This document shows positions 22,371 through 55,170 of a stretch of DNA of 64,000 nt, one piece after another (within the stretch, counting starts at the first letter, position 1; each line of letters begins with the position of its first letter). The stretch is taken from the NCBI RefSeq assembly GCF_018446385.1, contig NC_056005.1, positions 95,649,171 through 95,713,170 of the forward strand, in the 5' to 3' direction. The stretch comes from Zingiber officinale. Its lineage: Eukaryota; Streptophyta; Magnoliopsida; Zingiberales; Zingiberaceae. The notes under the pieces are model-generated. The model was not told the DNA's origin. It worked only from the letters and a program-made list of their open reading frames with translations, and ran no database searches. The position numbers and the translations under genes are program-made.

Positions 22371-22690
22371 AGCAGGTTTAGATTGATCCGTGGATCGATC
22401 CAGCAGATCTGGATCGATTAGTGGATCGATCCAGAAGATCTGGATCGATCCGCCGATCGATCCGGTGAGTCCCCGCGAACAGAACCCCTCTGGATCGATC
22501 CGTGGATCGATCCAGAGGTCCCAATCGATCAGTGGATCGATTGGGACGCTGCTGCTTCGCGCGATAAGCGCTGGATCGATCCGTGGATCGATCCAGACAT
22601 TTTTCCAGAGCACAGAGGCGCTCTGGATCGATCCGTGGATCGATCCAAAGCCTCCCCGATCGATTGGGAGCAATCCAATCGATTGAGATT
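22371..22690. repeat. Array of ATCGATC-core hairpins in the 5' LTR
   Basis: Several adjacent inverted repeats have 10-12-bp arms and loops of about 4 nt. Examples are CTGGATCGATC / GATCGATCCAG (loops CGTG, AGTG, CGCC) and TCCCAATCGATC / GATCGATTGGGA (loop AGTG). The open frames across this region (WIDP/DRS repeats) are by-products of the palindromes. Confidence 0.9.
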
Positions 22691-23206
22691 CGACCGTTGG
22701 CGTCGTTTATAGCTGTTGGCGTGCGATTTCTTCAGCAGAACTTCACCGATTCATTTTAGATCTTCACTAGCTCCTCCACAACTTTTCTCAAGCTCGAGAT
22801 CGCCAGTTCTTGAAGGTTCTTGGAGGGTCTTCCAAGTCAAGAGGCGGATCAAAGCAAGAAGAAGAAACTAGGGTTAGGGTTTGTGCACTCATTGTAAGCT
22901 TGTAAGCTTGTATTTCTTTACTACCCTTTCTTCTTCTTGTATTGAGTCTTGTAGGGCTTCTCCGCCTTTGGTAGTTACCATAAAGGAGAGTTTCATTAGT
23001 GGAGGGTGCGTGCGTTGTATGGATCCTTGGATTAGTCACCTCCCTTGGAGGTGGATACCAAGTAAAATCCAAGTGTTAGCGTGTTTGTATTTGTTTCTTT
23101 GTATTTCCGCTGCGCATCCTTGAAGAAACAAGCAACGCCGAGCAACGAGCACGCGAAGAGCTATTCACCCCCCCCCCCCCTCTTGCTACTTTTCAGTCAT
23201 AACAAG

Positions 23207-23218
23207 TGGTATCAGAGC
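23207..23218 (+). promoter_or_regulatory. Primer-binding site of TR-GAG A
   Basis: TGGTATCAGAGC two bases after the 5' LTR, complementary to the 3' end of initiator-Met tRNA. Confidence 0.92.
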
Positions 23219-23338
23219 GAGGTCGCTCTTCACCGGAATCATCGCCGGAAGGGTCAAGCATAACAAGAAGAGCTAGAGGGTGAAGAAGTTGAAGCAAAAT
23301 TCTCAAAGTCAAAGAAATTCAAAAGCTCAACTTCTACA

Positions 23339-25096
23339 ATGGAATTCCGAGATGGGCTCGGATTCGACACAAGGGTGGCTCCACCATACACTTCCACGAG
23401 CTTCGATTCTTGGAAATTAAGAATCGAAAATTTTCTTATGATGGAGATAGAGCAATGGTTTGCTCTTATGGAAGGCTTCAAGACTCCAACAAACTCAAAG
23501 GGCAATGTTCTCAAGAGGAGCAAGTGGAGCCAAGAGCAAATCCAAAGGTGCGAGGCCAATGACAAAGTGACCAAGCTTTTGGTCAATTTATTGTCAAGCA
23601 CCATCCTTTGTAAAATTGGAGAATTTGAAGATGCAAAGGAATTGTGGAACAAATTGATCAAGCTCCATGAAGAGATCTCCTTCACTGTACAAGATCAAGA
23701 AAAATCCAAAGAGGGCGACTCATTGGAGCAAGATCAAGAGGAGGACTCCGAGGTTGAGAGATGCTCAACCTCTGAAGATGAAGTCCAAGAAGAAGCCTCA
23801 TCTTCAAGGGAAAGCAATGAAGAGAACAAGGAGGGAGCATACTCCTTGTTCCATGAACAAGATGAAGATGAGGAAGCCTTCACCTCTAGGATTGAGGGGG
23901 AGAGATCTTCTTTGACCCCGGAGCAAGAAGAAGTATCCACATCCGGGTCAAGAGAAGAAGAGGATGAAGAAACTTTCAACTCCACAAGTCAAGCTAAATC
24001 AAATGGAGAAGCTTCCACATCCGGAGCTAGTGCCATCTCTACACAAGAAGGTATAAATGTTTCAATTAAAAATAAAAATCATATAATATGTTTTGAGTGT
24101 AGGGAAAGTGGGCACTACAAGAGCAAGTGTCCCAACTTGGCCAAGAAGAAGGGTCAAGTGACACAAATGGGCAAGGAGAAGCCCAAGGAGACCATCCCCG
24201 GGACAAAGAAGAGCAAGGAGCACATTGTGTGCTTCTTGTGTCAACAAAAAGGGCATTACCGAAGTCAATGCCCCAAGGGGAAGAAGATGGTCAAGGCTCA
24301 AGGAGGCACTAGTCAAGGGGGAGCCTCCAAGGTAAAGAAGAAGGTAACATTTATTGAGCCTACCCCTTTACGTTATGGTGAAAAGCATGATAGTTCAAAT
24401 TTTTATCATTTTAATGCTATTTACCATAAGAATAGAGAGCATGGTAAAATTAAGGAAAATAATGTAGCTTACCATGCTAAAACTACCACACCTAGGATTA
24501 GGAAGGTAGATAAAAATCTAGGCAATCACACTAAGGACCTTAGCTACAAGCCTAGAAATAAAAATGCTCATAAATTTAATGGAAAACCAAAAACTAAGGA
24601 CTTAGTGATAGAAAATCAAGTCTTGAGGTCAAGCCTTGATAAAATGAAAAAGACCCTAAAAAGGATGAAAAATATCCTAAAAGGGCAAAATGAGCATAGT
24701 CTAGGTCTAGGAGCACAAAGGTCATCTAATGGCCATAGGGGTTTGGGATACAAACCAAAGGCTAAGAAGAATGTAATCTCTTACCATAGGGTTCCATATA
24801 GTTATGGAACCAACCCTAGGTCTAGAGGTCAAGTCAAGGATACAAGGGAAGATATCCCTAGAAGTATCTTTGCAACCAAAGTGACTAAGACTTCTAAGAA
24901 GTCTAAGAAAGTCACTAACAAGGTCACAAGGGAGGCTATCCCTAGAGTTGACCTAGAAAATGTGACCAAGGCTTCTAAGAAGCCCAACAAGGTCACTAGG
25001 AAGGTATCTAGGGAAGTTATCCCTACTGAATACCTAGAGCATCCAAGGAGTACCAATAGGTGTTGGGTTCCTAGGAGCATTTTCTCTACCCCATAA
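23339..25096 (+). CDS. Gag-like protein of TR-GAG A (585 aa), intact
   Basis: An uninterrupted frame from ATG 23339. The N-terminal about 120 residues are copia-gag-like (SFDSWKLRIENFLMMEIEQW, ELWNKLIKLHEE). A highly acidic Ser/Glu-rich stretch follows (about 125-240). Two CCHC zinc knuckles come next: CFECRESGHYKSKC near residue 252 and CFLCQQKGHYRSQC near 299. A long Lys-rich C-terminal half has repeated segments VTK(T/A)SKK(S/P)(K/N)KVT. Knuckles bind RNA during particle assembly. No protease motif or pol follows, so the frame ends as gag only. An intact frame in a non-autonomous element suggests selection or youth. Confidence 0.88.
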   Translation: MEFRDGLGFDTRVAPPYTSTSFDSWKLRIENFLMMEIEQWFALMEGFKTPTNSKGNVLKRSKWSQEQIQRCEANDKVTKLLVNLLSSTILCKIGEFEDAKELWNKLIKLHEEISFTVQDQEKSKEGDSLEQDQEEDSEVERCSTSEDEVQEEASSSRESNEENKEGAYSLFHEQDEDEEAFTSRIEGERSSLTPEQEEVSTSGSREEEDEETFNSTSQAKSNGEASTSGASAISTQEGINVSIKNKNHIICFECRESGHYKSKCPNLAKKKGQVTQMGKEKPKETIPGTKKSKEHIVCFLCQQKGHYRSQCPKGKKMVKAQGGTSQGGASKVKKKVTFIEPTPLRYGEKHDSSNFYHFNAIYHKNREHGKIKENNVAYHAKTTTPRIRKVDKNLGNHTKDLSYKPRNKNAHKFNGKPKTKDLVIENQVLRSSLDKMKKTLKRMKNILKGQNEHSLGLGAQRSSNGHRGLGYKPKAKKNVISYHRVPYSYGTNPRSRGQVKDTREDIPRSIFATKVTKTSKKSKKVTNKVTREAIPRVDLENVTKASKKPNKVTRKVSREVIPTEYLEHPRSTNRCWVPRSIFSTP

Positions 25097-27429
25097 ATGG
25101 GTTAGAGAGTGTCAACTCTAAGCGAAAGGGTAGTTAACCCAATCATGAAGAAATTGACACTCAAGGAGCATTTTCAAGGTTTTTGTTAACCTTTGAAAAT
25201 GAAATTGAATTATTATTTACTCCTTGAAAGAGTAAACTGTGCCTAATGGTGAAAAATTGATTTTATCTTAAAATGGCATAAATTGGGAAAACCTAGAGAA
25301 ATACCAAGTTGGGATTTTGGTATTCTCTTAGAAATTTAAGGCAATCCGGGCCTTGATTTATGTGATTATTCTTGAGGAAAAATGGAATATGCCAACATTT
25401 GAGGATATGCTTAATTTTTAAGTGGCATAAACAAATCAAGAGAAATAGAAATGTCAATTTAGGTTTTGGCATTTCTTTGAAGCATTTAGGGCAATCTAGG
25501 TTTAACATTTTAAGTTAAAACAAGTGATATATTTTGGGTTAGCTAAGTGGTTAAGGATACTTAGATAGGTAATCTAGGTATATTTTATTTATGCTAAACC
25601 TTGCCATGATTATTTGCCCATCATATGTCATGACATCATGTCTATTTTTACATTTATGTTTTATTATGAAAAATCCAAAAATACCATGTCATGACATTCA
25701 TACATCAAGTAGTTATAGGATATTTTCTTTTGAAAATTATTTCATCTTGATGTATGCCATAACATAATCATGCATTAAGTTTAAATTCCTTGAAATTAAG
25801 GACAAATGACATTTAACATCACTTATTAACAAGTGACATCCTGGTGGATGTTTAATATTTTTAAAATGCCTAGATAGATATGCATGATCCCTAGAATAGG
25901 GTAAAACCAAAATCTCACATCTCACAAGGACTATAAGGTGACTTGTATGTGTTTAAGTGCACATTAGATACAAGTGAGATGTTAGGAAGATGAACAAAAC
26001 TCAAGATGTTGATTTAGTGCATTCTTCTGAGTTTTAGGTTCATCAAAACACATAGTTATGTGTTTTCCCATCATTGGGAAAGCTAATGTACAAGTCATAT
26101 GCATTAAGCCCAAGGAACATGGTGGGATATTGGTTTTGAAAATGTTTTTAAAGATAATTTTGGAAAACCTTGGTAAATGCTATCTTTTGATAGTAATCAC
26201 CATTGAATAGTTAGACACAAACTTGAAGAAAACACTAAAACTTTAGCAAGTTTTCAAGCTTGTGTTAATCTTTGAAAATATGATGTATTTTCATAGAAAA
26301 CTATTTTTCCATGATAAAGTATGCCCTAAATAATGTCTACACAAATTTTTACGATTTTTGGAATTTTGTAGAATTTTCTAGGGGTTTCTGAAATTGGCTG
26401 AAATTGAATTTCAGCAATTTCAAGCCTCCAATCGATCAGTGGATCGATTGGAGTGCCTCAATCGATTAGCCGATCGATTGAGAAGGCATTTCTCATGAGC
26501 AGAAGCTCGCTGGATCGATCAGCCGATCGATCCAAGAAGACTGAATCGATCAGTGGATCGATTCAGCAGGGCTCAATCGATTGGAACCCAACTCCAATCG
26601 ATTGAAGATGCTGATTTTGGCTGGGAAAGCTTATTTTCAGCATTTTGAACCTATTTTAGTCTAGGTAACCATTCCAAACCCCTGAAAATACATTTGTATA
26701 CATAAAAAAGGGTGTTTTCGTGTGGAAAACAAGGATGAATTGGTTAAGGAAGGCTAAGTTGAAGTTTAGGTTGAGGTTTGTTTCAAATTTTGAATATTTG
26801 AACCTCAAAACTTCTAAAATTGGGTTTCCTAAAGTTTTAGGGATTCCAAGTCATTGTTGGTGCAATGACAGAAGTTACCACCATGTCTTTAGGGGGAGGG
26901 ACTCTTTAAAGACATGAAAATTATTATTTTTCATGAACCTTGGAAGGTGGTCAACCTTCCGTTAAGAACATGCTCAAGGTTGAGCGTTTGAACTTTAATG
27001 GGGAGTGGATATCCTCATTGTTCAAGTGGTTTCAAGTGGATAATGCTCAAGGATGGGCATTTGCCTACATTGGGGGAGAATGTAGGGTTAAGGTTAATGA
27101 AGGGTATGGGACCTTCATTATCGTGCTGATCACAACGAGTGACGTTGTGAACAACGATGAGCAACTCTTTAGGGGGAGAGTTTTCAACAAGTGAATTTGT
27201 TGATATGTGCCCAAAAATGGGGCATGGTTTGATGTGTGCCAATAGGGGGAGAATGAAAGGGAGTAAGTTAGGCTTTCATTACCTAGAGGGAGTTTGCCCT
27301 CTTAGGGGGAGAATGAAGGGCTTAACTTATGTATTCATTACCTAGTGGCATGAAGAAGGTTTAGGCTATGGGATTAGCCTAACTTACATGTGGTATTGTA
27401 AGTGATAGTGTTGGTATTGTCAAACATCA
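25097..27429 (+). other. Non-coding 3' internal region of TR-GAG A
   Basis: About 2.3 kb between gag and PPT without pol domains. A second hairpin cluster lies at 26,425-26,605, and several GGGGGAG-type purine tracts (near 26,890, 27,170, 27,245 and 27,304) resemble extra polypurine tracts. The same layout recurs in element B (53001-55170), so it is a conserved part of the family. Confidence 0.8.
26425..26605. repeat. Internal ATCGATC-core hairpin cluster (TR-GAG A)
   Basis: Four adjacent hairpins with different, fully complementary outer stems: CTCCAATCGATC/GATCGATTGGAG, CTCAATCGAT/ATCGATTGAG, TGGATCGATC/GATCGATCCA and CTGAATCGATC/GATCGATTCAG. Confidence 0.9.
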
Positions 27430-27442
27430 AAAAGGGAGAGAT
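27430..27442 (+). promoter_or_regulatory. Polypurine tract of TR-GAG A
   Basis: AAAAGGGAGAGAT immediately before the 3' LTR, the usual plus-strand priming site. Confidence 0.88.
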
Positions 27443-28935
27443 TGTTGGTGCAACATCCCTCAGGTCAAGGTTGGCCTGGTTGACCAAGCTTGAGTCTTGG
27501 TTTGGGTTTCGATGTTTGACAATGCAAGGTTGATTGAAGAAGAGTCAAGTAGGTCAAGGATGACCGGATACTTGAATGGGAAGTCCTAGTGAGTGAAGCT
27601 AGGCAGGAGGAAAATCCTGGTGAGTGAAGCCAGGTAAAAGACCTAGTGAGTGAAGCTAGGCAATTAGGAAGTCCTAGTGAGTGAAGCTAGGCAGGAGGAA
27701 AATCCTGGTGAGTGAAGCCAGGTGAAAGACCTAGTGAGTGAAGCTAGGCAATTAGGAAGTCCTAGTGAGTGAAGCTAGGCAGGAGGAGTCCTGGTGAGTG
27801 AAGCCAGGCAAGAGAAATCCAGATGGGTCAAGGTTGACCAGACATCTGGTGAGAGTCCAAGTAGGTCAAAGGGATTGACCGGATACTTGGCACGAGAAAG
27901 AAAAGTCCAAGTAGGTCAGAGGGACTGACCGGATACTTGGCAAGAAGAGAAAAGTCCAAGTGGGTCAAAGGGATTGACCAGACACTTGGTGAGAGAGTCC
28001 TAGCTGGTCAAGGGTGACCGGATGCTAGGTCTTATGTACCAACAAGTCATGGTTGACTAGATGTTGGTTTAGGGGGCTTTAGACTTGGTTTTGGGTAAAA
28101 ACCAAGATCTGGATTAATCAGCCGATTGATCCAGCAGGTTTGGATTGATTCGTGGATCGATCCAGCAGATCTGGATCGATCAGTGGATCGATCCAGAAGA
28201 TCTGGATCGATCCGCCGATCGATCTGGTGAGTCCCCGCGAACAGAACCCCTCTGGATCGATCCAGAGGTCCCAATCGATCAGTGGATCGATTGGGACGCT
28301 GCTGCTTCGCGCGATAAGCGCTGGATCGATCCAGCGCTTTTCCAGAGCACAGAGGCGCTCTGGATCGATCCGTGGATCGATCCAAAGCCTCCCCGATCGA
28401 TTGGGAGCAATCCAATCGATTGGGATTCGACCGTTGGCGTCGTTTATAGCTGTTGGCGTGCGATTTCTTCAGCAGAACTTCACCGATTCATTTCAGATCT
28501 TCACTAGCTCCTCCACAACTTTTCTCAAGCTCGAGATCGCCAGTTCTTGAAGGTTCTTGGAGGGTCTTCCAAGTCAAGAGGCGGATCAAAGCAAGAAGAA
28601 GAAACTAGGGTTAGGGTTTGTGCACTCATTGTAAGCTTGTAAGCTTGTATTTCTTTACTACCCTTTCTTCTTCTTGTATTGAGTCTTGTAGGGCTTCTCC
28701 ACCTTTGGTAGTTACCATAAAGGAGAGTTTCATTAGTGGAGGGTGCGTGCATTGTGTGGATCCTTGGATTAGTCACCTCCCTTAGAGGTGGATACCAAGT
28801 AAAATCCAAGTGTTAGCATGTTTGTATTTGTTTCTTTGTATTTCCGCTGCGCATCCTTGAAGAAACAAGCAACGCCGAGCAACGAGCATGCGAAGAGCTA
28901 TTCACCCCCCCTCTAGCTACTTTTCGGTCCTAACA
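27443..28935 (+). repeat. 3' LTR of TR-GAG A (1,493 bp)
   Basis: Very similar to the 5' LTR but shorter: fewer 88-bp units, a shorter C run, and two hairpins collapsed to loop-less palindromes (28249-28268 and 28319-28335). Confidence 0.92.
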
Positions 28936-30183
28936 TATTAGTATGAATAGTCCTCAGACCTGAAGTCACTACGGTTCACTACATAAGAAGTTGTATATTT
29001 TGATATCGATAAACATCACCCATAACAGGGTGGACCATAAAGTCGATCACTGTGTATGCAATAAGTTATGCGGAGGGATGTGAGTGATGTAGATGAGATC
29101 TATCCCTTCCATATAACGGAAGTGATATCTATGGGTCCCTTGATTAGTAGGACGCAAGAATGCATGGTCATGTTTAAATGAGTCAATATGCGATATTGAG
29201 CTTATTTGATTGAGTGTGTCTACTTAGAGATTAAGAAACACAAAGATTGATAAGAGGATGACACGCTCTATGTCTCATTGATCAATCTAGATATCAAGGA
29301 TAGAAGGATTGAGTCATACAAGATAATAGTCACGGAAAGGTTAAGTCGGATCTCAACATTTTTGTCACTTGGGTAGCAATGATGCCTTGCTAGATGCCAC
29401 TCATTGCTTATGTATGTAAATGTTGATTTGGATACATTGCCAACGTTACGAGAACCTATTGGGTCACACACAAAGAACAAGTCAATGGAGATGGATTCAT
29501 ATGATGGATTATTGGATTAAATCTAATTCAAATTAGACTCATTGAGTTAGACTCAATGGGATCCAACTATTAGATTGAGTCCAATTTGAATTAGATTCAT
29601 TGAGTCAATTGGATTGATGATTAATGAGTTTGACTCATTAAATGATTTCATGAAGAAAGAGAAGTGTATAATTTGAATTACTCATGGATTGGATGAAGAG
29701 TGGACAATTTGAATTGCTCATGCATTGTTTTCATTGGATGAAGACAAATATTAATGTCAATTAAGGCAATTGACATTAAGGAATAAGGTAATTTCATGAA
29801 TCTATAAAAAGGGATTTTTGGATTCATTTTCATGATGAGTTTTTGGTGTTCTTGCTCTTCTTCCTCCTTCTCTCTTCACTTGGCCAAAACTTCCAAGAAG
29901 GGTTGCTAGCACAACCTTTGGTTGTTTCATTTTTCACTTTGTGAGTTTGTTAGACAAACAAGGATTGTTCATATGGATACCATAGAGGTGTGACCACTTG
30001 ATCGCGCCAAGATCCGCATCTAAAGAAATGTTGCTGTCGGGATTGTGAAGGGCACGCAACAAAGGTATAACTTCTTTTTCATGTAGAAACTTAGTATATA
30101 GTTTCCTTTTGCATGGATCTTCTGGATGGAAACTAGATGTTTTCCGCTGCGCTTTCACGTGTTTAGCGCCCTAGTTCCTTACA

Positions 30184-30599
30184 GTCAGAACCTAGCTTTG
30201 CAAGCTAAGAAGGATGAATAGGATTTTGACGCATCCCTCGATAAAGATGAAAGAACATATATGGTAAGAAAATTTTTAAATTTTTTTAAGTCTAACAGTA
30301 TTAACAAGTCATGGGCTAAGAAGCTTCTTCGAGAAAAAAGGAGAATAAGATGCTACAACTATAATGAAGAAGGACACGTAAAAGACAACTACTCAAAACT
30401 GAATGAGAAAGATAAGGACAAAAGGCCAACACGAGCGAAACACAAGAACCTTAAGGCGACGTGGGATGATTGTTGTCATCCGAATTAGAGATCGAAGCAT
30501 ACACCGAACTTGTACTAAGGGTAAGTTACCAAAAAGATAAAGACAAAGAAAGTTCATGTGAGATGAGTATCGATGAAGGGGGACTACTTCAGAGGAAAG
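30184..30599 (+). pseudogene. Ty1/copia gag, C-terminal part (H1), decayed zinc knuckle
   Basis: Downstream of the second GTCAG the copia gag resumes (NLALQAKKDE, then after a stop DEDE-like text and MVRKFLNFF). The zinc knuckle at about 30,351-30,395 reads CYNYNEEGHVKDNY: the second and fourth zinc ligands are Tyr instead of Cys. Text up to about 30,599 (EIEAYTELVL, SSCEMSIDEGG) is the usual spacer of such polyproteins. Everything downstream is replaced by another LTR. Confidence 0.72.
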
Positions 30600-31604
30600 T
30601 GTAGGATCGTACCACACGTGAGAGGGGGGAGGGTAAATCATGTGATTTAAAAAGTTAACCTTTTTTCGGTTTTGAAAATGAGTACGCAGTGAAAATAAAA
30701 CAGAAACTGAAAAAGCAAGAACACACTAACTTGAGGAATTACTTGGTTCAGAGCTTTCAGTGACTCCTACTTCAAGAACCACGATCTCTCAAACTATATT
30801 GATGGACAATCCACTATAATTATCTTCCAAAACCATCAGAAGAGAGCATCGAGTACAATAGAAAAACAAGGGCAAGTGTAACAAATCACACTTTCCTTTA
30901 TGCAGAAATTAAGTAAAAAAAATTTTTCGTTACCTAACACTTTGAGAAGATCTGATCGAGCTCAGTGTTGGATAGGTTCTCAGCAGTAGTCGGGCGAAGC
31001 AATGTCGTAGCACTGCAGACAGACGAAGTCGGAGCACCCGCAAACTCGAAAGGTCGCGTATTGAAGTTGTAATTGAGTTGTATTGAAAGCTTGGCTGAAC
31101 CCTTCTTTTATAGGCTATTTAGGGTGCCTCCAAGCCTCGTCCAAGTCGCCTCCAAGAGCAAACTTTATCTCACAAACCTCGGTCATGATAAGCTCCGCAA
31201 CCTTCAATTTTTTATCTTTTGGAGGGCGCCTTCAACGCTCTTCCAAGGTGCCTCTAGCACCAAGCTTAAGGCCCCTCCCAGAGGCATGCGAGGTGCCTCC
31301 ACACCCTCCCGCGCGGAGTCTTCGACCAGCATCCGAGGTGCCTCCAGGAGGCGCCTTCGCGCCATTGTCCAGGGTGCCTCCAATCGACTAGGAGACGCTT
31401 TGAGCATTGTTCACCAAGGCAGATTTTTCTCTTTAACTCCTACAAAAACATGTTAGTCCAAAAATAAAATATAACCTTCAAAATAGAGTTAGCACAATAA
31501 TAAAATAATATTATTAATTAGATCTTGTTTGTCCAAGACTACGATCGAGTTAAGGTCTCAGTTTAGGGATCCAAAATGGACCTAAACTGGACCTGCGCAT
31601 AACA
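30600..31604 (-). mobile_element. LTR-like segment in minus orientation
   Basis: Read on -, it starts TGTTATGCGCAGG (31604) and ends ACGATCCTACA (30600), giving TG...CA ends. A TATA box (complement of TTTTATA, 31106-31112) is near its middle, with GGAGGCACCT-type repeats upstream of it. No matching TSD (GAAAG left, CCCCT right), no PBS and no partner, so it is a fragment or altered solo LTR. Confidence 0.55.
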
Positions 31605-31635
31605 CCCCTAATTGGGTTTCATCCTCACTAGAACA

Positions 31636-33338
31636 TGTTGGTGCAATATTCCCTAGGTCAAGGTTGACCTGGTTGACTGAGCTTGAATTAGATCAAGCTC
31701 GAGTCTTGATGTTTGGGTTTCAATGTTTGACAATACATGAAAACAAGACATGAAGATTGCAGGTGATATTGTTCATGTGGTGAGATTGTGAAGGAGAGTT
31801 AAGTAGACTGTATACTTGACTGGAAAATCCTGGTGAGTGAAGCCAAGTGAAAGTCCTAACTGGGAGGTTAGGCAGAAGGAAAATCCTAGTGAGTGAAGCT
31901 AGGTAAAAGTCCTAGTAAGTGAAGCCAGGCAGAAGGAAAATCCTGGTGAGTGAAGCCAAGTAGGCAGAGGGAAAGTCCTGGTGAGTGAAGCCAGGCAAAT
32001 GAGAAGTCCTAGTGAGTGAAGCTAGGTAGAAAGAAATCATAGTGAGTAAAGCTAGGTGAAAGTCCTGGTGAATGAAGCCAGGCAAATGAGAAGTCCTAGT
32101 GAGTGAAGCTAGGCAGAAAGAAATCCTAGTGAGTGAAGCTAGGTGAAAGTCCTGGTGAGTGAAGCCAGGTACAGAAAATCCAAATGGATCAAGTTTGACA
32201 TCTGGTGTTGGGAAGTCCAAGTAGGTCAAAGGGATTGACCTGATACTTGGAACAGGAAATCCAGGTGTATCAAGGTTGATCGGACACCTGGTGGAGACAA
32301 GTCCAAGTGGGTCAAGGATGACCGGACACTTGGCACGAGGAGAAAAGTCCAAGTAGGTCAAAGGGATTGACCGGACACTTGGTGAAGGGTTTCTAGCAGG
32401 TCAAGGGTGACCAGATGCTAGGCATGATGTACCAACAGGTCATGGTTGATCGGATGTTGGTTTAGGGGACTTTGAACTTATTTTTGGGCAAAAACAAGGG
32501 CTGGATCGATCAGCCGATCGATTGGCTCATGCCCAATCGATCGATCGATCGATTGAGAGAGTCCCCACTACAAGCCTCCTCCCAATCGATCAGTGGATCG
32601 ATTGGGGAGAAGTGTCGTGCAAACAGAAAGCCTCCCAATCGATCAGCCGATCGATTGGGAGCCTCCGATCGATCAGCCGATCGATTAGGAGGTGTGATTC
32701 GCACGATAAGCCCTGGATCAATTAGCCGATCGATCCAGGCATTTCCCGAGAGCACAGAGGCGCTCTGGATTGATCGACCGATCGATCCAAAGCCTCCCCG
32801 ATTGATTGGGAGCAATCCAATCGATCGGGATCCGACCGTTGGCGCAGGATATAGCTGTTGGCGAGCGCTTCTCTCAGTAGAACTTCTACGTCTTTGATTC
32901 TCTTCTACACAGCAGTTCTCCATAACCTTCCTCTCCACTCTCACGCCAGTTCTTGAAGGATCTTGGAGGCACGTCCAAGTCAAGAGGCAAGTTACAACAA
33001 GAAGAAAAAGCTAGGGTTAGGGCTTTCATTGCATATCTTGTAAGATATTTCTTGTATTTGTTTTCCCTTGATTTCTTCTTGTATTGAGAGTGTTGTAAGG
33101 CTTCTCCACCTTCGGTAGTTACCGAAAAGGAGTGTTTACATAGTGGAGGGTGCGTGAGTGTGTGGATCCTTGGATTAGTCACCTCTTCTTGAGGTGGATA
33201 CCAAGTAAATCCTAGAGTTAGCGTTGTGTGTGTGTTTCTTTGTAATTTTCGCTGCACATCATTGAAGAAACAAGCAACGAAGAGCACGAGGAGCGCAACG
33301 AGCTATTCACCCCCTCTAGCTACATTTCGGTCCTAACA
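31636..33338 (+). repeat. 5' LTR of element B (1,703 bp)
   Basis: Starts TGTTGGTGCAATATT and ends CGGTCCTAACA. It contains CCTAGTGAGTGAAGCTAGG-type repeats (31830-32170) and ATCGATC-core hairpins (about 32,500-32,830). It shares termini and layout with the LTR of A but has diverged clearly in sequence. Confidence 0.9.
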
Positions 33339-33389
33339 AGTGGTATCAGAGCGAGGCCGCTCTTCCACTACAAGAAAAAAGCTAAACAA

Positions 33390-33780
33390 CAACGCTTTTT
33401 TGGCGTTGTCGTATGTACTTAAAAAGTGATGTTGTAGATGGTGTTGTAGAAAGTCATATCAAAGACAACGCTTTAAAAGCGTTGTGGTTGGTCACAAAGA
33501 CAACGCTTTTTAAGCGTTGTCTTTTCGTTCTTAAAAAGCGTTGTTATAGATGCTGTTGTAAAAATGCACATATCAAAGACAACGCTTTAAAAGCGTTGTG
33601 GTTGGTCACAAAGACAACGCTTTTTAAGCGTTGTCTATTCGTTCTTAAAAAGCGTTGTTAAAGATGCTGTTGTAAAAATGCACATATCAAAGAAAACGCT
33701 TTAAAAGCGTTGTGGTTGGTCTCAAAGACATTGTTTTTTAAGCGTTGTCTTTTATTACTTAAAAACGTTGTCTTTTTAAA
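33390..33780. repeat. CACTA subterminal repeats, left end
   Basis: About three copies of a unit of roughly 122 bp containing palindromes such as GACAACGCTTTTTAAGCGTTGTC-like arms (AAGACAACGC / GCGTTGTCTT). They match the kind of subterminal sites bound by CACTA accessory proteins. Confidence 0.85.
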
Positions 33781-42655: not shown

Positions 42656-42719
42656 TGAGGGTTTAGAGTTTAGCAAAGCGAGGGCTGCGAATTTATTTTA
42701 AGTGAGTTTAGGGGAAACA

Positions 42720-42930
42720 TACACAACACTTTAAAAAACGTTTTTTAAAAAAATGTTGTCTTTGACCATAAACAACAACACTAAAGACAACACTTCATTA
42801 AAAACCGTTGTCTTTAGTAAAAAGTAAATACCATAGACAACGCTTTTAACTAAAAGCGTTGTAAAACAAAGAACGACAACGTTTTTATTAAAAAGCGTTG
42901 TCTATTGGGTGTTGTTGAATGCAAAAATTC
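42720..42930. repeat. CACTA subterminal repeats, right end
   Basis: Several GACAACGCTTTT / AAAAGCGTTGT units in both orientations, mirroring the left end. Confidence 0.85.
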
Positions 42931-45562: not shown

Positions 45563-45579
45563 ATTCTCCCTACCTTATA

Positions 45580-45770: not shown

Positions 45771-45971
45771 GCCTGATATCTTCTCTATCATTTCTAAACA
45801 TACTTATGTATATGAATATAAGAGAGACAAAACTTCTATCTTACTAAAGCGCATTTAAGCAATTACTCCATACTGCAAATAATAAAGAAAGCATAAAAGG
45901 AAAACTTAAATACTTTCTTACTTGAAGACGGCAAGGTTGGTGCTGATGTGTGATGCTGGAGGATAGGAACT

Positions 45972-45983
45972 GCTCTGATACCA
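45972..45983 (-). promoter_or_regulatory. Primer-binding site of the minus gypsy derivative
   Basis: GCTCTGATACCA, the complement of TGGTATCAGAGC, directly inside LTR copy 2. With the PPT-like tract just above 45562 it bounds an internal region of only 423 bp. Confidence 0.88.
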
Positions 45984-46531
45984 ACTGTAACACCCCGCCC
46001 TCCTCACTACTGGACTGTGAGGGCGGAGCGCTACTGGACTACTAACTTTACTTAACTATCCTTGTTCACATGTTGATAGAAATTCCTAAAACTCTCGGAG
46101 AACTCAAAACATACAGTTAACTAGCAGCGGAAGACTAAATGACTCATCTAATACATTCTTAATAAATGACAATCTTAATAAATTCTTATGCTAGGTCCCA
46201 AGGCTTTTATAGTCCAGGCATCACACATCCATCCGCACCTCCTTGTCGCCTTCCTTTGCTATAACTTTTTCTTTCCTTTATCTGCAGTAAGAGGAAAATG
46301 CATCTATAAGCAAAATTACTTAGTAAGCGCTATCTAACTCACAAAACTCGAGTATGCATGTAAGCTAAAAGAAATCTAGAAACTAAATACTCATCTAATA
46401 GCAAACGAAACATAGCATACTGAAATACTAAACATGAAAGCAAATCTAAATAACATGTCAGTATATAAGAAAGCTAAACTTGCTGAATTTTAAACTTATG
46501 TGAAGCTTATTTCTTTTGTTTGAAAACTTAT

Positions 46532-49500
46532 TGTAACACCCCAAATTTCATGATTTGGAGTCCTAAAAGACCTTATTAAAATCTAGAAATGTTTTAGAAA
46601 AATTCTAGAGATTTTTAGAAATTTTTAGAGTATTTTTATGCAATTTTTGGAGGTCGTTTGATATTTTACCAAAAGAAAGAAGTTTTAAAAAAAGAAAATG
46701 TCCAAGCCGAGGCTTGAACCGGCAACCTCTGATCCGAGCAAAACCCAGCTAACCAACTGGGCTAGCAGTTATTATTTGATCTAATAAAGGAAAAATTTTA
46801 TTTAAGTAATAGAAGTTAATAGTGAGAAATAATAGGGAGAAAATAAGTTGCAACCAGGATTCGAACCAACGAACTGCGCCTTAAGCCGAACGCGGCCAAC
46901 CAACTGATCCAGCGATCATTTCTTATTAAAGAAGGAGAAGAATTCCATTTAAGTAGTAGTTAGGAACAGTAAAATAAATTGGAAATAAAAGTGCGCGGCT
47001 GAGGAATCGAAGCCCAGATCTTTGACTTGGTTAAAATCTGGCTAACCAAGTGTGCTGCGGGCGGTTTTGTTTAAGAATAGATAGAAAATTTATTTAAAGA
47101 AGTTAACAGAATATTAAGGTTATAAGAGGAGAACTTAGGGCTTGATTATTTCCCCATGACCTAGCTTTTCCCTTCGCCTTCCTCGCGTGCGACGGCGACG
47201 ATTCTGCCCGAGCGAAGACAAAACGCAGCTGGAAGTTAGCATCTCTCCGGTGGCCGGCCAAAGGGATTCCGCGAGTTCTTCTCGGATTTGAGCTTCCCTC
47301 GTCAAGAGGGAACTGTTAGCACGAAGAAGGGCCGGAGATCTCAAGCCTTCCGAACCCTAGAACCTTCCTTTCCTCTCGGTTTGAATCCAAGAATGCAAGG
47401 TAAGTCGCTTACTCACCTGCAGTAGGATAGCTTCGGATTTCTATTTCCTTTGTGTTCCGAATGTGTTCTGTGAAGAAGGTTAGATTAGGGTTGCTGCCGT
47501 GACCTTCAAAGGAAGAATAGATTGTGTTCTTATCTAAATCTTTTGTGTCCTTAAGTTATCTAAAATAGTTTAAGGATTCATGTTTCCTTCAGTCTTTAGT
47601 TTTCTGCCGAGAATATTAGAGAAGAGAAACGGATTATATCGTTTCGAATTATAGATTTGGTTTCGGTTTCGATAATGAATGTGGTTTCCTTGTGTTTTTC
47701 TTGGTATGTCGTGGGAAAGGATTGAACTTCGAAGTTCTATCGTGAGTTGAGGTTTCAGTGATGTTCTAATTGTTCTTGCTCGTGCTTAATCCATCGCATG
47801 CTTTCTGTTTTGGGTTCTGCACCGGATTGGAGATTGAATTTGTTGCTGCCCTGTTTCTTCGGGTTGTTTGAGTTTCTAGATAGAAGTTTGATTGTGTTCT
47901 GCGATTTGGATATGTTAAGGATCCGGTTTCCAGCATGCTATGTTTTGTTCTATGAGTTTCTTTGTGGTATTCCTTCAATTGGATTCTTCCCAGTTGTCTT
48001 TTGATTCGGCCGGAGGTTTCACAGTCGCTCTTGTTTGTGCTTACTGCTATGAACAAAGAACAGTTATATGTTTGAAAGATCTCAGAATTAAATTTCTTTG
48101 CTATTGTGTAATTTTGATTCAATTGTTAGATTGAGGAAATGAATGAATTGATTAGGTTGTGCATGTTGTTTTATTCAAAGTAGTAGAAACCCACCCCACT
48201 GTATTACCATGCAAATCAACTATGAAGGCCTACATTTTTGTAAACTAAAGTGTACCTTACCTTCTATAAATGGTATATTTAAGAGCAGTAAGTGTCCTTT
48301 GTTTTCTTGCTTGGGATTTTTCTATACAGCATTGGGATGGCTAGAGGTTTAAGAGTAGCTAGCGTGCTTATGATTTGGTGTTCCAGTTTTGACTAAGTTG
48401 TAACAGGCTTAAAGATTATGATTTCCTTATAAAATTATAGCTGTGAATAAGTTTTATATTGGTATTGTTTTAGTTTTCCAGTAAGCTTAATTTGATTTGT
48501 GCATGGAGAGCTTATAGTGCAGATTTCTTAGAGCTTAAAATACAGATTGTATGTGCAGATTTCTTTTTGTATTCTATGCATGATTATGTGTTACATAGTT
48601 AGTTTCATTCATAGATGCATAAGAAAGATAAAGAAAAGTATAAGAAAGATAAAGAAAAGAAAGAAAAGGCCGAGGCCTTAAGTAGATCCCAAAGTCAAGA
48701 CTTTAGGGATTTTGGCGCACAAGGTGCCTATTAAAATGCCGAGGCATTCAAAGAAGAAGTAATTAAGATTATAAGTATTTTACTTTTAAGAAGAGGCTAG
48801 TACCCGACTTCCGAGGTTGTCGTTAAACAAATCCAGGTGTCCAATTCCGAGGTCTTGGCCCTGGTAGACCGAGGTCTGCTCTTTTAGGATTGGTGGCTCG
48901 CTACCCCAACCTATCAGGGAACGCGCATAAGATGGTACTATGCCTGGGCCCAAGAAAAAGTTGATTACTATTTTGAAGTATTATAAGTATAAGCTTTTGA
49001 ACTAATAAAACAATGTGTTTACAAAAGTTTACAAGTATTAAAGAATAAGTTTTAAATAAGTAAAATAAAAGAATAAGTTATTAAGTAAGTTTAATAAGAA
49101 TCAGAAAGTGTTTATAATTCAGTAAGTTAAATCTTTATGCTAGCATGATAGTATAGACTTGTCTTACATGTTTAGCCTTTCAGTATGTTCTTTACTATTA
49201 GGAGAGCATGAGTTAGCTTACTGTTATTTGCTATTTATGAGCATGAGTAGCTTTGCATGTTTCTATTTATATACATGCATATCGAGTTTTTGTGAGTTAG
49301 ATAGCGCTTACTAAGTAAATTTTGCTTATAGACTACACTTCCTCTTACTGCAGATATAGGAAAGGAAAAGATATAGAAAGGAAGGCGACAAGGAGGTGTT
49401 CGAGGGATGTGTGATGCCAGGACTATGGAAGCCTTGGGACTTAGTTTAAGAATTTATTAAGAATGTATTAGATGAGTCATTTAGTCTTCCGCTGTTAGTT

Positions 49501-49788
49501 AACTGTATGTTTTTATTTTGTTTTCGCTATTTATTACTTGCATGCTTTGATTTCATTAAACTGCGTGGTGATGTTATTCCTTTTGGTTGTGAAAATATAT
49601 GTTCCAGCCGCCTGTGGCTGAGTATAGTTTGTTTGTATTGTTGATAAGGTCACCGGTACAGGGGAGACTCTGTCGAAATTTTTCGGTAGGGTTTCCATGT
49701 GATTTTTAATCATACCGGTTAAGTAGAGTTAGTAGTAAGTAACGGTCATCCTTAGAGAGTAGTAGTAGTAAGAAGGGTGGTCGTTACA
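46532..49788 (+). repeat. Plus-oriented related LTR (3,257 bp), followed by PBS
   Basis: It starts TGTAACACCCCAAATTTC, ends GTCGTTACA, and is followed by TGGTATCAGAGC (49791-49802). The first 200 bp, the middle (48,660-48,960) and the end region are clearly homologous to the minus LTRs but diverged. It is longer because of three tRNA-like modules and extra sequence at about 47,100-48,600. It lies in LTR copy 2 in opposite orientation, creating a large imperfect inverted repeat. Confidence 0.82.
46710..47056 (-). repeat. Three tandem tRNA-like modules in a gypsy LTR
   Basis: On -, A/B box pairs: AGCCCAGTTGG (46753-46763) with GGTTCAAGCCT (46710-46720); TGGATCAGTTGG (46900-46911) with GGTTCGAATCC (46857-46867); AGCACACTTGG (47046-47056) with GCTTCGATTCC (47003-47013). 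The gap between boxes is 32 nt in all three, as in tRNA genes, and the period is about 146 bp. Acceptor and T stems do not pair well, so these are tRNA-derived or SINE-like relics, not tRNA genes. Confidence 0.7.
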
Positions 49789-49940
49789 GTTGGTATCAGA
49801 GCAGTTCTCATTCTCCAGCATCACACATCAGCACCGTCCTTGCCGTCTTCAAGTAAGAAAGTATTTAATTTTCTTTTATGCTTTCTTTATTATTTGCAGT
49901 ATAGAGTATCTGCTTATATGTGCTTAGGAAAGAAGATATA

Positions 49941-51886
49941 CACTACTGGACTGCGAGGGCGGAGCGCTACTGGACTACTAACTTTACTTAACTATCCTTG
50001 TTCACATGTTGATAGAAATTCCTAAAACTCTCGGAGAACTCAAAACATACAGTTAACTAGCAGCGGAAGACTAAATGACTCATCTAATACATTCTTAATA
50101 AATGACAATCTTAATAAATTCTTATGCTAGGTCCCAAGGCTTCTATAGTCCAAGCATCACACATCCATCCGCACCTCCTTGTCGCCTTCCTTTGCTATAA
50201 CTTTTTCTTTCCTTTATCTGCAGTAAGAGGAAAATGCATCTATAAGCAAAATTACTTAGTAAGCGCTATCTAACTCACAAAACTCGAGTATGCATGTAAG
50301 CTAAAAGAAATCTAGAAACTAAATACTCATCTAATAGCAAACGAAACATAGCATACTGAAATACTAAACATGAAAGCAAATCTAAACAACATGTCAGTAT
50401 ATAAGAAAGCTAAACTTGCTGAATTTTAAACTTATGTGAAGCTTATTTCTTTTGTTTGAAAACTTATACTTTAATACTTCAAAATAATAATCAACTTTCT
50501 TCTTGGGCCCAGGCATAGTACCATCTTATGCGCGTTCCCTAATAGGTTGGGGTAGCGAGCCACCAATCCTAAAAGAGCAGACCTCGGTCTACCAGGGCCA
50601 AGACCTCGGAATTGGACACCTGGATTTGTTTAACGACAACCTCGGAAGTCGGGTACTAGCCTCTTAAATAAAGTAAAATACTTATTATCTTTTATTACTT
50701 CTAATATATAATGCCTCAGCATTTTCTTTAAGCACCTTGTGTGCCAAAATCCCTAAAGTCTTGACTTTGGGATCTACTTAAGGCCTTGGCCTTTTTCTTT
50801 CTTTTCTTTATCTTTCTTATACTTGTTAATACCTTTAATAAAAGAATGATTCTTTAAAAACTGAAATGTTTAAACAAATTCTAACTTTGAAATGCATAAA
50901 CAAAAATCTACATACTATGTTAATCAAAATTCTGCATACTATTCTAATCAAGATTTTGCATTCTATGCTACACTATTTCTACATACTATGCAAACATAAA
51001 ATCTGCACTATAATCTTAATTAAAATCTGTAATATAAGCTCTACATAAAAATCTACATTATAAGCTTAATTAAAATCTGCACTATAGGCTTAATTAAAAA
51101 TCTACACTATAAGCACTTCTTATGCTTCGAATTCAAGAAGAACAAAGGTCCGAAACTACTCCTACTGCAGGTGAGAATCACTTACCTTGCTTCTTGGACT
51201 CACAACAGAACAAAAAGGGCTTCTAGGACCTTAGACGTCCGCCGAAGATGATGCCCTAACTCCCTTTCGTTTTCTGCCCGAGCTCCGCCATCGTACGCAG
51301 AAGAGAAGGAGAGAATGGTTTAAGTCATGGGAAAACAGAGCATCAACTTATCCCTTTTTATAACTTAATATTTCTGTTAACTCCTTAAATAAATTCGCTA
51401 TCTTTTCTAAACAGACAAATCCAACATCAACTTATCCCTTTTATAATCCAATATTCTGTTAATTATTTTAAATAAATTCGCTACTTTTTCTAAACAAACA
51501 AATCCAACATCAACTTATCCCTTTTATAATATTCTGTTAACTATCTTAAATAAATTCGCTACCTTTTCTAAACAAACAAATCCAAGATCATCTTATCCCT
51601 TTTATAATATTCTGTTAACTATCTTAAATAAATTCGCTACCTTTTCTAAACAGAAAAATCTGTTTTCCCACCTGTTCAGCTGGGTTTTGACCGAGTCAAA
51701 GGTCGTGGGTTCAATTCTCGGCTTGGACATTTTTTTGTCGAAACTTCCTTCATTTAGTAAAAATACCAAACGACCTCCAAAAATTACATAAAAATACTCT
51801 AAAAATCCCTAGAATATTTCTATATCATTTTTAAATATTTTTAAATTACTTTTAGGACTCTAATTGAGGAAATTTGGGGTGTTACA
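49941..51886 (-). repeat. Minus-oriented LTR, copy 3 (lacks first about 19 bp)
   Basis: Starts CACTACTGGACTGCGAGG, which corresponds to base 20 of copy 1, and runs to the element end. Its first about 530 bp duplicate LTR copy 2 (45986-46531). Confidence 0.85.
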
Positions 51887-53000
51887 GCTTCCACCTCCAC
51901 AAGTCAAGCTAAATCAAATGGAGGATCAAGTGCCATCCCTACACATGAAGGTATAAATGTTCAAATTAACAATGAAAATCATATTATATGTTTTTGAGTG
52001 TAGGGAACATGGGCACTACAAGAGTAAGTGCCCCGAATTGGCCAAGAAAAAGAGTCAAGTGGCACCAAAGGGTAAGGAGAAGCCCAAAGAGACCGCTCCC
52101 TCAACAAAGAAGAGCAAGGAGTACATTGTGTGCTTTTTGTACAACCAAAAGGGACATTATAGAAGTCAATGTCCCAAGGGGAAGAAAGCGGTCAAGGCTA
52201 AAGAAGGAAGCACAAATCAAGGGGGAGCCTCCAAGGTAAAACGAAAAGTATCATTTATTGAGCCTACCCCTTTAAATAATGGTAAAAAGCATGCTAGTTC
52301 TAATTTACATCATTTTAATGCTATTTACCATAAAAATAGGAAGCATGATGTCATTCAAGAAAAACACATGACTCTTCATGCTAAAACTACCACACCTAGG
52401 GTTAGGAAGGTAGATGAGAATTTAGGCAATAACTCTAAGGATTTTAGTTATAAGCCTAGAAATAGAAATGCTCATGGACTTAATGAAAAATCAAAAACTA
52501 AGGATTTATGGGAAGAAAATCAAGTCTTGAGGTCAAGACTTGATAAAATGGAAAAGACCCTAAAAAGGATGGAAAATATCCTAAAAGGGAAAAATGAGCA
52601 AAACCTAGGTTTAGGACAACAAAAGTCATCCAATGGCCATAGAGGTTTGGGATACAAACTTAAGGCTAAGAAGGATGTAATTTCTTACCATAGAGTTCCA
52701 TATAGCTATGGAACCGAGTCTAGGTCTAAAGGTCAAGTCAAAAGTACAAGGGAAGTTATCCCTAGGAGTATTTTTGCAACTAAGGTGACTAAGACTTCTA
52801 AGAAGTCTAACAAAATCACTAAAAAGGTTACAAGGGAAGAAATCCCTAGGGTTGACCTAGAAAAGGTGACCAAGGCTTCTAAGAAGCCAAACAAAGTCAC
52901 TAGGAAAGTATCTAGGGAGGTTATCCCTAGCGAGTACCTAGAGCATCCAAGGAGCACCAATAGGCTTTGGGTTCCTAAGAGCATTTTCTCTACCCCATAG
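51887..53000 (+). pseudogene. Gag of element B, part 2 (zinc knuckles and C-terminal half)
   Basis: It resumes after the second GCTTC. An extra T near 51,993 shifts the frame just before the first knuckle (ECREHGHYKSKC); the second reads CFLYNQKGHYRSQC with one Cys changed to Tyr. From there to 53,000 the frame is open and closely parallels the C-terminal half of the gag of A (VTKASKKPNKVTRKVSREVI). Confidence 0.85.
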
Positions 53001-55170
53001 ATGGGTTAGAGAGTGTCAACTCAAGTTGAAAGGGTAGTTAACCTAATCATGATGAAGTTGACACTCAAGGAGCATTTTCAAGGTTATTAATTAACCTTTG
53101 AAAATGATAAGGGGTATATGTTTACTCTAGGGAAGAGTAAAATGTGTCACATTTTGAGAAATTGGATGATATTCTAAGTAACACAAATAGGGAAAATCAA
53201 AAGAACTACCAAGTTGGGATTTTGGTATGTTCTTAGGAAATTAAAGGCAATTTATGCCTTAACTTAAATTGGTTACTCTTTGAGAGAGTAATTTGTGTCA
53301 AATTTTGAGGAATATGCTTAAATTGAATTGACACAATGTAGGAAAGTGCAAAGAAAATGTCAAAATTGGGGTTGACATTTTCTTGATGAAATTGGGCAAT
53401 CTAGGATTTAGCTAAGGTTTTAGAATACTTAGATAGGTAATCTAGGTATATTTCATTAATGCTAAAACTTGCCATGCTTTGTTTGCCCATCATATGTCAT
53501 GACATCATGTTTATTTTTGACATTCATACCTTATTATGAAAAATACAAAAATATCATGTCATGTCATACATACATCATATAGTTATAGGAAATTTTCTTT
53601 TGAAAATTATCTCTTTTTGATGCATGCCATAACATATCATGCATTATTTCAATTCCTTGCAACTTAAGGACAAATGACATTTATTAACAAATCACATCCT
53701 TGGTGGATGTTCATAACCTCAAAATGCCTAGGTAGATATGCATGAACCCTATATTAGGGTAAAACCAAAAGTTTACATCTCACAAAGAACTATAAGGTGG
53801 CTTGTATATGTTTTTATACACATTAGATGCAAGTGAGATGTTAGGATGATGAACAAAACTCAAGATGTAATTTAGTGCATTTTTTTGAGTTTTAGGTTCA
53901 TCAAAACACATAGTTATGTGTTTTCCAATCATTGGGAAAGATAATGTACAAGTCATGTGCATTGAGCCCAAGGAACATGGTTGGATATTGGTTTTGAAAA
54001 TCATTTTAAAATACTTTTGGAAAACCTTGGTGAAGGCTATCTTTTGATAGTAATCATCATTGAATAGTTGAGTACAAACTTGAAGAAAACACTAAAGTGT
54101 TTACAAGTTTTCAAGTTTGTGTCAATTTTTGAAAATATGAAGTATTTTTTTAGAAAACTATTTTTCCATGATACTATATGCCCTAAATAATGTCTACAAT
54201 GATTTTTATGATTTTTGAAATTTTGTAGATTTTTCTAGGGGTTTCTGAAATTGACTGAAATGGAATTTCAGCTTTTTCAGAGCTTCAATCGATCACCCGA
54301 TCGATTGAAGGGTCTCAATCGATCGGGCGATCGATTGAGAGCAAGCTTCTCGCGAACAGAAGCTTCCTGGATCGATCCACTGATCGATCCAGCCCTCCTG
54401 AATCGATCAGTGGATCGATTCAAGCAGGTTCAATCGATTGGGACCCAACTCCAATCAATTGGGAATGCTGATTTTTGCTGGGAAAGCCTGATTTCAGCAT
54501 TTTAGACCATGTTTTAGTCTATGTAACCATTCCTTACCCCTCAAAACATATTTTTATACACCTAAGGGGGAGTTTTCATGATGAGAACAAGGATGGATTG
54601 GTTAATGAAGACTAAGTCGAAGTTTAGGTTGAGGTTGTTTCATTATTGAATTTATGAACCTCAAAACTTCTAATTTGAGTTTCCTAAAGGTTTAGGGATC
54701 CCAAGTCATTGTTGGTGCAATGACAGAAGTTTCGTGCATGTCTTTAGGGGGAGTTACTTTTTAAGGACATGAAATATATTTTTCATATACCTTGGAAGGT
54801 GGTTAACCTTCTTTCACGAAAATGCTCAAGGTTGGGTTTTTGAATATAATGGAGAGTGGATATCTTCATTATTCAGGTGGTGTATGCTCACGGATGAGCG
54901 TTGAGAATAATGAAGGGTATGAGACCTTCGTTATTGTGTTGTGAACAACAAGTGAAGTTGTAAACAACGTTGGGTAACTCTTCAGGGGGAGAGTTTTTGA
55001 TGTGTGCCAATAAGGGGGAGAATGTGTGGTTAAGTTAGGCCTTCATTACCTAAGAGGGAGTTGCCCTCTAGAAAAGGAGGAGAATAAAGGAAACCATCAT
55101 TCTCATATTGGCATGAAGAAAGTTCAGGCTATGGGATTAGCCTAACTTACAAGTGGTATTGTCAAATATC
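53001..55170 (+). other. Non-coding 3' internal region of element B
   Basis: Collinear with 25097-27429 of TR-GAG A, with many small differences. It includes hairpins at 54,285-54,460 and multiple GGGGGAG tracts. No pol domain. Confidence 0.8.
54285..54460. repeat. Internal ATCGATC-core hairpin cluster (element B)
   Basis: Four hairpins: CTTCAATCGATC/GATCGATTGAAG (loop ACCC), TCTCAATCGATC/GATCGATTGAGA (GGGC), CTGGATCGATC/GATCGATCCAG (CACT) and TGAATCGATC/GATCGATTCA (AGTG). They occupy the same place as in TR-GAG A but with different stems and loops. Confidence 0.9.

Follow-up and report, generated by a model that had tools for sequence, protein, structure and literature searches.

Sireviruses of the Ty1/copia group carry the so-called RM boxes, a Sirevirus-specific repeated motif with dyad symmetry, short intervening bases and at least eight copies per element; the boxes are palindromic, lie upstream of the TATA box and in most elements form CpG islands (Bousios et al. 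2010, PMC2829016). The same survey proposed that the boxes serve as binding sites ahead of the TATA box, and described a second cluster in the linker of envelope-bearing members, a correlation drawn over 13 elements (PMC2829016). A CGG-CCG core is present in 12 of the 13 elements tabulated there; the exception is tobacco Tnd-1, whose RM box is ACAATCGATTGT in eight copies and which has no CpG island, TATA motif or linker boxes in that survey (PMC2829016). In maize Sireviruses, the palindromic region of the long terminal repeat (LTR) is described as strongly folding and as a small-RNA hotspot (PMC10760457, PMC5311732). Here we describe a 64,000-nt stretch of the ginger genome (Zingiber officinale, NC_056005.1:95,649,171-95,713,170; hereafter the window is this whole stretch), in which two related LTR elements, element 1 and element 2, carry tandem arrays of hairpins with an ATCGAT core. 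The comparison gives good support to the arrays being an ATCGAT-core variant of the palindromic RM boxes, in Sireviruses that lack pol and have a constrained Gag. An earlier note on this DNA, made from the sequence only, had known of no described motif like this; the RM boxes are such a motif (PMC2829016).

Ginger arrays and the RM boxes of Sireviruses

The arrays are situated in the LTRs and in the linker, between gag and the 3' LTR, of both elements:

22343..22690, + strand: 5' LTR of element 1, hairpin array in the U3 with its end some 15 bp upstream of a TATA-like TTTATAG; CpG observed/expected ratio (o/e) 1.31 (22371-22690)
22654..22688, + strand: last unit of this LTR array, with ATCGAT within a longer stem and a 7-nt loop
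26426..26605, + strand: linker array of element 1, made up of five hairpins of which the last has a 7-nt loop; CpG o/e 1.19
28105..28430, + strand: hairpin array in the U3 of the 3' LTR of element 1; CpG o/e 1.21 (28130-28430)
32500..32830, + strand: hairpin array in the LTR of element 2, upstream of GGATATAG; CpG o/e 1.20
54283..54460, + strand: linker array of element 2; CpG o/e 1.27

All 23 matches to ATCGAT[CT]N4[GA]ATCGAT in the window lie within these five arrays, which are the five places where the earlier note had seen tandem hairpins, and the matched outer stems that it named are present. The listed hairpins (only arms of at least 9 bp were taken) have arms of 9-14 bp. The 4-nt loop described before is not shared by every unit; the last unit of the LTR and linker arrays of element 1 has a 7-nt loop, and in such units the two ATCGAT are 19 or 21 bp apart, against 12 bp elsewhere, with ATCGAT still in the stem. 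The loops had also been said to vary freely, yet four of them (AGTG 84, CGTG 37, AGCC 29 and GGTG 20, reverse complements pooled) account for 170 of the 210 unique hairpins. Some units bear fixed mismatches. In the distant LTRs L047, L048, L059, L060, L070 and L071 the ATCGAT hairpins are kept, with loops such as GGTC, GGTT and GGCC; the best LTR matches to element 1 have identities of 68-79% (L059) and 69% over the longest stretch (L060).

The motif is highly abundant. In the 3.09 Gb assembly (211 contigs), to which all genome-wide counts refer, ATCGATC-N4-GATCGAT occurs 239,928 times and its reversed control 117 times; a whole hairpin flanked by two further half-units was found 138,981 times, against 0 for the control, and one LTR signature of this kind has by itself 8,963 matches. 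The sense-strand folds of the five arrays are 7.6 to 16.4 standard deviations below those of dinucleotide shuffles (30 each), compared with 1.3 to 4.7 for three control stretches of element 1. The CpG o/e, 1.19-1.31 in the arrays, is 0.04-0.24 in gag, linker and early U3 and 0.66-0.77 after the LTR array, which shows that CpG is retained in the arrays.

As in the RM boxes, the palindromes occur in high copy, the LTR cluster precedes a TATA-like box, the sequence is rich in CpG (judged by o/e) and a second cluster is found in the linker (PMC2829016). Unlike most RM boxes, the ginger units have the core ATCGAT, and the CGG-CCG signature is absent (PMC2829016). The outer part of the 9-14 bp arms differs, by matched changes, from unit to unit and from family to family, whereas the RM table gives a single consensus per element, with copies commonly more than 85% identical (PMC2829016). 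The linker arrays are present in both elements although their linkers hold no open reading frame (ORF) of at least 150 aa (no search was aimed at a decayed envelope gene), so that the correlation of linker boxes with an envelope does not seem to extend to these two elements; the four envelope-less Sireviruses tabulated by Bousios et al. had no linker cluster (PMC2829016). The ginger elements are also without pol, unlike the RM-box Sireviruses of Bousios et al. 2010. Furthermore, the LTR cluster of element 1 begins some 660 bp from the start of the 3' LTR and some 810 bp from that of the 5' LTR, compared with 200-400 for RM boxes (PMC2829016). This late start is due to the U3 first holding two other hairpin series:

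21669..22342, + strand: two further hairpin series (types A and B) in the U3 before the array; fold z -9.46 (21669-22320)

Type A is formed by CCTAG/CTAGG and CCTGG/CCAGG around TGAGTGAAG, and type B by nested CCAAGTA..GGTCA..TGACC..TACTTGG with matched variants, the outer ones being CCAAGTA/TACTTGG, CCAAGTG/CACTTGG, CCAGATG/CATCTGG and CCAACA/TGTTGG and the inner ones GGTCA/TGACC or AGTCA/TGACT. The same two series are found upstream of the arrays at 21669-22342, 27579-28104, 31822-32460 and 55371-55860.

With the maize Sireviruses, the ginger elements share a palindrome cluster within the regulatory LTR region, a sequence that is highly variable and a strong predicted fold (PMC10760457, PMC5311732); the commonest motif in maize, where small-RNA data are at hand, is CACCGGACNNNGTCCGGTG, and in ginger the core is ATCGAT. 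Like the dimerisation hairpins of Ty1 and retroviruses, the units are self-complementary sequences in a genomic RNA (PMC5454406, PMC5874298); the Ty1 signals are at the 5' end, while many ginger units are in the 3' part, and a dimerisation role would be putative. As far as we checked, it is new that the arms covary, that a linker cluster occurs where neither pol nor a long envelope ORF is present, and that the motif is so abundant: among the matches listed in a literature search, we found no account of covariation in Sirevirus palindromes nor of Sireviruses of the ginger family.

Covariation of the hairpin arms

We fetched 159 loci (257,025 bases), of which 129 lie within the initial 46 Mb of contig C1; the other 30 were the best 30 of 3300 first-look candidates in a genome-wide search with the element 1 linker, one of them being the window itself. 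For the cluster analysis, which started from 158 loci, we left out 13 (8 near duplicates and 5 context pieces) and another 12 whose orientation was unclear from the loops, and the resulting set, the window plus 133 loci, contained 804 hairpins. Forty loci had been found via a mismatch (from two lists of G.U and two of A.C, with ten loci per list), and the recruiting hairpin was dropped from this set, though not from the tree test. Clustering at 85% identity gave 204 hairpin clusters.

In these clusters, outer pairs 1-3 are Watson-Crick in fractions of 0.853, 0.760 and 0.608, whereas 2000 shuffles of the 3' arms gave means of 0.518, 0.477 and 0.468, and maxima of 0.652, 0.569 and 0.569. When only the 30 clusters present in at least three loci are considered, all three outer pairs are Watson-Crick in 80% (37% in the shuffles, with a maximum of 63%). 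Partner arms slid by 2 or 3 columns are Watson-Crick in 9% of the cases, and in about 19% when slid by 1. The arms are thus not mismatched as often as matched, an outcome that the earlier note had named as fatal to its reading: in 583 hairpins, outer pairs 1-4 are Watson-Crick in 93, 87, 80 and 59%, and the core, favoured by the search pattern, in 95%.

For the tree test, 80 distinct LTR rows, each with an anchor identified downstream of the array, were placed on a tree made from 287 non-stem columns, and changes at 64 stem pairs were assigned by parsimony. Both arms of a pair changed on the same branch 44 times, against 25.5 expected (maximum 39 in 2000 nulls), and 27 of the double changes led from one Watson-Crick pair to another, against 9.1 expected (maximum 20 in 3000 nulls); the changes per arm were 250 in the 5' and 215 in the 3' arms. 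The last unit of the LTR array provides a clear single case: the outer pair is G-C in 54 of 78 LTRs, A-T in 13, G.T in 10, C.C in 1 and A.C in 0, and the 5' LTR of element 1 itself (22654-22688) has the G.T. The first linker hairpin is CTCCA/TGGAG in element 1 and CTTCA/TGAAG in element 2, with the intermediate T.G in other copies.

Several observations weigh against this reading of the tree. Of the 27 Watson-Crick double changes, 22 sit on tip branches, and some tips show several co-changed pairs per hairpin, as would result from replacement of a whole unit or from misalignment. When hairpin-branches with one or two co-changed pairs are counted, their number (26) is within chance (null mean 18.8, maximum 32). 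In addition, at one stem pair 27 LTRs have G.G, compared with 38 that have G-C and 8 that have C-G. The compensatory change that had been claimed for LTR and internal copies exceeds the nulls both in the cluster shuffles and in the tree test, and the matched change on the tree speaks for a self-pairing capacity that is maintained, or regenerated, beyond the core motif.

Structure of the elements and their Sirevirus features

Besides the arrays, we identified the following features in the two elements:

21533..23204, + strand: 5' LTR of element 1, repeated at 27443-28935 (blastn)
23168..23180, + strand: polyC tract (C13) near the end of the 5' LTR, in the place of the Sirevirus 'integrase signal' as defined in PMC2829016
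23207, + strand: primer binding site (PBS) TGGTATCAGAGC of element 1, adjoining the 5' LTR
23339..25096, + strand: gag ORF of element 1, 585 aa
26891..27311, + strand: four polypurine octamers AGGGGGAG in the linker of element 1, at 26891, 27171, 27244 and 27304
27416-27428 with 27511-27523, + strand: 13-bp inverted repeat spanning the junction of polypurine tract (PPT) and 3' LTR, element 1
27433, + strand: variant PPT AGGGAGAG of element 1, adjoining the 3' LTR
27443..28935, + strand: 3' LTR of element 1 (repeat comparison, blastn)
31636..33339, + strand: LTR of element 2; a PBS comes after it, at 33341
51957..53000, + strand: 3' part of a gag ORF of element 2, 79% identity to the Gag of element 1 over 338 aa
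55175..55835, + strand: terminal PPT AGGGGGAG and truncated 3' LTR of element 2; the LTR starts at 55185 and the PPT 10 bases earlier

The end of the 5' LTR and the PBS together read CA-AGTGG-TATCAGAGC (23203-23218), which fits the Sirevirus CA-A(T/G)TGG-TATCAGAGC (PMC2829016). The 3' LTR of element 1 has a shorter polyC near its end (C7 at 28905). The linker of element 2 holds five AGGGGGAG, the terminal copy at 55175 included, and further copies lie within gag, two in element 1 and one in element 2; the inverted repeat across the PPT/3' LTR junction of element 2 has 14 bp (55156/55272). Since these non-coding features fit the definitions in PMC2829016, element 1 is best filed as a pol-less Sirevirus. 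The assignment is made by non-coding features, no pol having been found in these elements whose reverse transcriptase could be placed in the Sirevirus clade.

The Gag of element 1 matches zf-CCHC (E 5.1e-8, two matched stretches), with a weak match to Retrotran_gag_2. As to a coiled coil, the gag fragment of element 2 matches Rootletin weakly (E 0.046). A distant copy on contig C1, L077, retains a gag ORF (615 aa as listed from GTG) whose protein is 81% identical to that of element 1. Between them, dN is 0.093 and dS 0.274 (NG86), or 0.103 and 0.206 (YN00), and this comparison with a more distant copy shows that Gag is under constraint. Besides gag, no sense ORF of at least 150 aa occurs between the LTRs of element 1, and thus no pol ORF was found; the description of the elements as gag-only agrees with both results. 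We take them to be similar in this respect to the TR-GAG non-autonomous LTR retrotransposons, which presumably also have gag without pol. On C1, several distances between neighbouring arrays are about 4 kb, like the spacing from LTR to linker in element 1, and therefore the pol-less form seems common in the genome. As to an autonomous partner, 150 of the 120,716 first-look RVT_2 candidates of the genome were scored, and none could be linked to these elements. One RVT_2 place near an array (C1:4331547) is on the opposite strand, and between them there are just two short gag matches, also on the opposite strand.

The non-coding stretch 25097-26424, from gag to the linker array, is 89% identical to that of L077 over 1298 bp; as Gag is 81% identical, a further conserved non-coding function may reside there. 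The gag pieces of element 2 are at about 42.9-43.6 kb and 51.9-53.0 kb, with other DNA between the parts of the element. Its LTRs (the copy at 31636 and the start of that at 55185) are 89.5% identical over 674 bp, so that either element 2 is older or the LTRs come from two related elements. The DNA between its parts begins with 114-bp tandem units containing the inverted repeats ACAACGCTTTT..AAAAGCGTTGT (33461-33658), which recur at 42837-42862. These repeats resemble the subterminal repeats of a DNA transposon. Another PBS-like TGGTATCAGAGC, at 49791-49802, has no adjoining LTR match to element 1 and probably belongs to another element.

Selection, templated mutation and the molecule involved

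The explanation that we propose, and to which as a whole we give about an even chance, is that these are RM-type ATCGAT arrays of pol-less Sireviruses whose self-pairing is kept, somewhat likelier in RNA. Each unit would be kept able to self-pair, and the flanking bases could change if the partner arm changes too; the ATCGAT core is nearly constant, probably because something recognises it. Self-pairing would act, somewhat more probably than otherwise, in the genomic RNA, alongside any promoter role of the U3 as DNA. An RNA role is plausible because, in an R-to-R transcript, all copies (those of the linker and of the U3 in the 3' LTR) are in the 3' part. The units with 7-nt loops, which retain ATCGAT in the stem despite their differing spacing, point to self-pairing rather than to a fixed spacing in DNA. 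Moreover, the maize counterpart is a small-RNA hotspot, which is a cost, and a benefit of the structure is therefore likely (PMC10760457, PMC5311732). What the data show directly is the identity of the elements by their non-coding features, the position of the arrays, the covariation and the retention of CpG. To prefer selection over a mutational cause and RNA over DNA, and to assign the arrays to a step such as stability or packaging, is an inference.

Matched arms could also result from neutral templated mutation, in which quasi-palindrome correction or fold-back template switching, likeliest during reverse transcription, remakes one arm on the template of the other. The LTR array of L053 (G000:C1:1123850-1124750) contains 51 bp of array sequence repeated in inverted orientation at 94% identity, as a fold-back switch would leave, which shows that events of this type take place. 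Two units in the 3' LTR of element 1 have become perfect palindromes that are shorter than their counterparts in the 5' LTR (AAGCGCTGGATCGATCCAGCGCTT at 28316-28339, with the longer 5' unit at 22568-22601, and CCTCTGGATCGATCCAGAGG at 28249-28268, with that at 22487-22518). The tip position of most double changes on the tree (22 of 27) also agrees with this process, which predicts no preference for G.U, as is seen at the level of copies. After insertion, however, two-arm changes are rare: 20 nearly identical linker copies (1140 cells) contain 23 one-arm changes and 0 two-arm changes, and the one-arm to two-arm minority changes within clusters are 163:1, 178:3 and 191:4 at thresholds of 0.88, 0.85 and 0.82. 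Matched change that is rare among recent copies of the same family and visible between families fits the prediction of selection, although fold-back in the course of reverse transcription would give the same picture. The retention of CpG and the near-constant core speak for constraint and are left unexplained by templated mutation, and the inherited mismatches lean to G.U. On these grounds we consider neutral templated mutation unlikely.

Selection on the folding of the sense RNA would predict more G.U than A.C among inherited one-arm changes, with no such preference among recent ones. The internal branches of the tree carry 28 G.U and 16 A.C changes, and the outer pair of the last LTR unit, with 10 G.T and 0 A.C, leans the same way. 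Fixed mismatches in the ten innermost pairs of the clusters are, as G.U:A.C, 9:0 at thresholds of 0.85 and 0.88, 9:1 at 0.82 and 6:0 at 0.92. Counted by cells, there are 83 G.U and 44 A.C among 2210 in LTR loci found by the spacer (L119-L158), 79 and 21 among 1550 in the C1 list (L039-L076), and 58 and 46 in L079-L118; in homologous columns that include the stem ends, the counts are 67 vs 90 in LTRs and 25 vs 38 in linkers.

Other results speak against it. The tips of the tree have 76 G.U and 87 A.C, and the bias of the internal branches taken alone is not significant (binomial p 0.096; against the tips, Fisher p 0.061). Some units with fixed G.U also carry G.G or G.A and resemble hybrids, and without them the ratio is 5:0 (p 0.06); when the fourth outer pair is included, two fixed A.C appear at the stem end. 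Genome-wide, outer pair 1 has no G.U preference (G.T 2193, A.C 2584), and at one 5'-arm CpG there is a modest excess, 2884 vs 1842, fed by one inherited LTR unit. The 1:1 expectation is perhaps too simple, as sliding the motif by one column gives a strong excess of G.U or of A.C. Finally, the minimum free energies of sense and antisense strands are about equal, and the U3 position and near-invariant core fit DNA sites too. At the inherited level the direction is right for RNA, and the evidence leans that way with insufficient weight.

Many of the genome-wide mismatch cells at outer pair 1 may be hybrids of neighbouring units. An excess of C>T over G>A in the cores of 270 hairpins (121 vs 17) was not relied on, as it comes partly from one inherited LTR unit. 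In the close internal family, C>T and G>A changes number 21 vs 15 in the array and 183 vs 190 in the flank, where CpG changes were not scored.

The arrays might instead be cis-regulatory dyads of the DNA only, that is, palindromic binding sites before the TATA box with a symmetry serving protein binding or a cruciform. With this agree the end of the array about 15 bp before a TATA-like box, the near-invariant core, the richness of the arrays in CpG, the antisense strand folding as well as the sense, and G.U being no commoner than A.C at outer pair 1 genome-wide and at the tips. A protein site would fix the outer bases, yet these change in matched pairs, and the spacing from ATCGAT to ATCGAT differs between unit types; for these two reasons a plain DNA-protein inverted repeat is not favoured as the sole cause. 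A cruciform would meet both objections. The linker array is far from the promoter, and G.U prevails among the fixed mismatches of the inner ten pairs. We regard an action as DNA dyads only as possible, although rather unlikely.

Small RNAs offer another origin for the pattern: the hairpins could chiefly be templates for host small RNAs, their persistence being a by-product of copy number and of the host response. In maize, Sirevirus small RNAs do pile up on the palindrome-rich LTR region (PMC10760457, PMC5311732), but such a situation would select against elements that keep the structure, the reason for whose persistence is itself asked after in PMC10760457, and we find this account very improbable. 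Returning to self-pairing in the genomic RNA, a more specific and quite doubtful version is that the arrays are a device for multivalent RNA self-association and packaging, in which the self-complementary AUCGAU arms may pair in trans. The covarying outer stems would hold the units as hairpins ready to exchange, and the own Gag of the pol-less elements would bring their RNA into particles with the RNA of an autonomous Sirevirus.

Why an element should retain structured regions which the host can use as small-RNA templates is a question raised in work on maize (PMC10760457), and the ginger arrays bear on it. Their approximately 240,000 perfect cores constitute a natural experiment big enough to settle whether selection on the RNA, selection on the DNA or templated mutation accounts for them.

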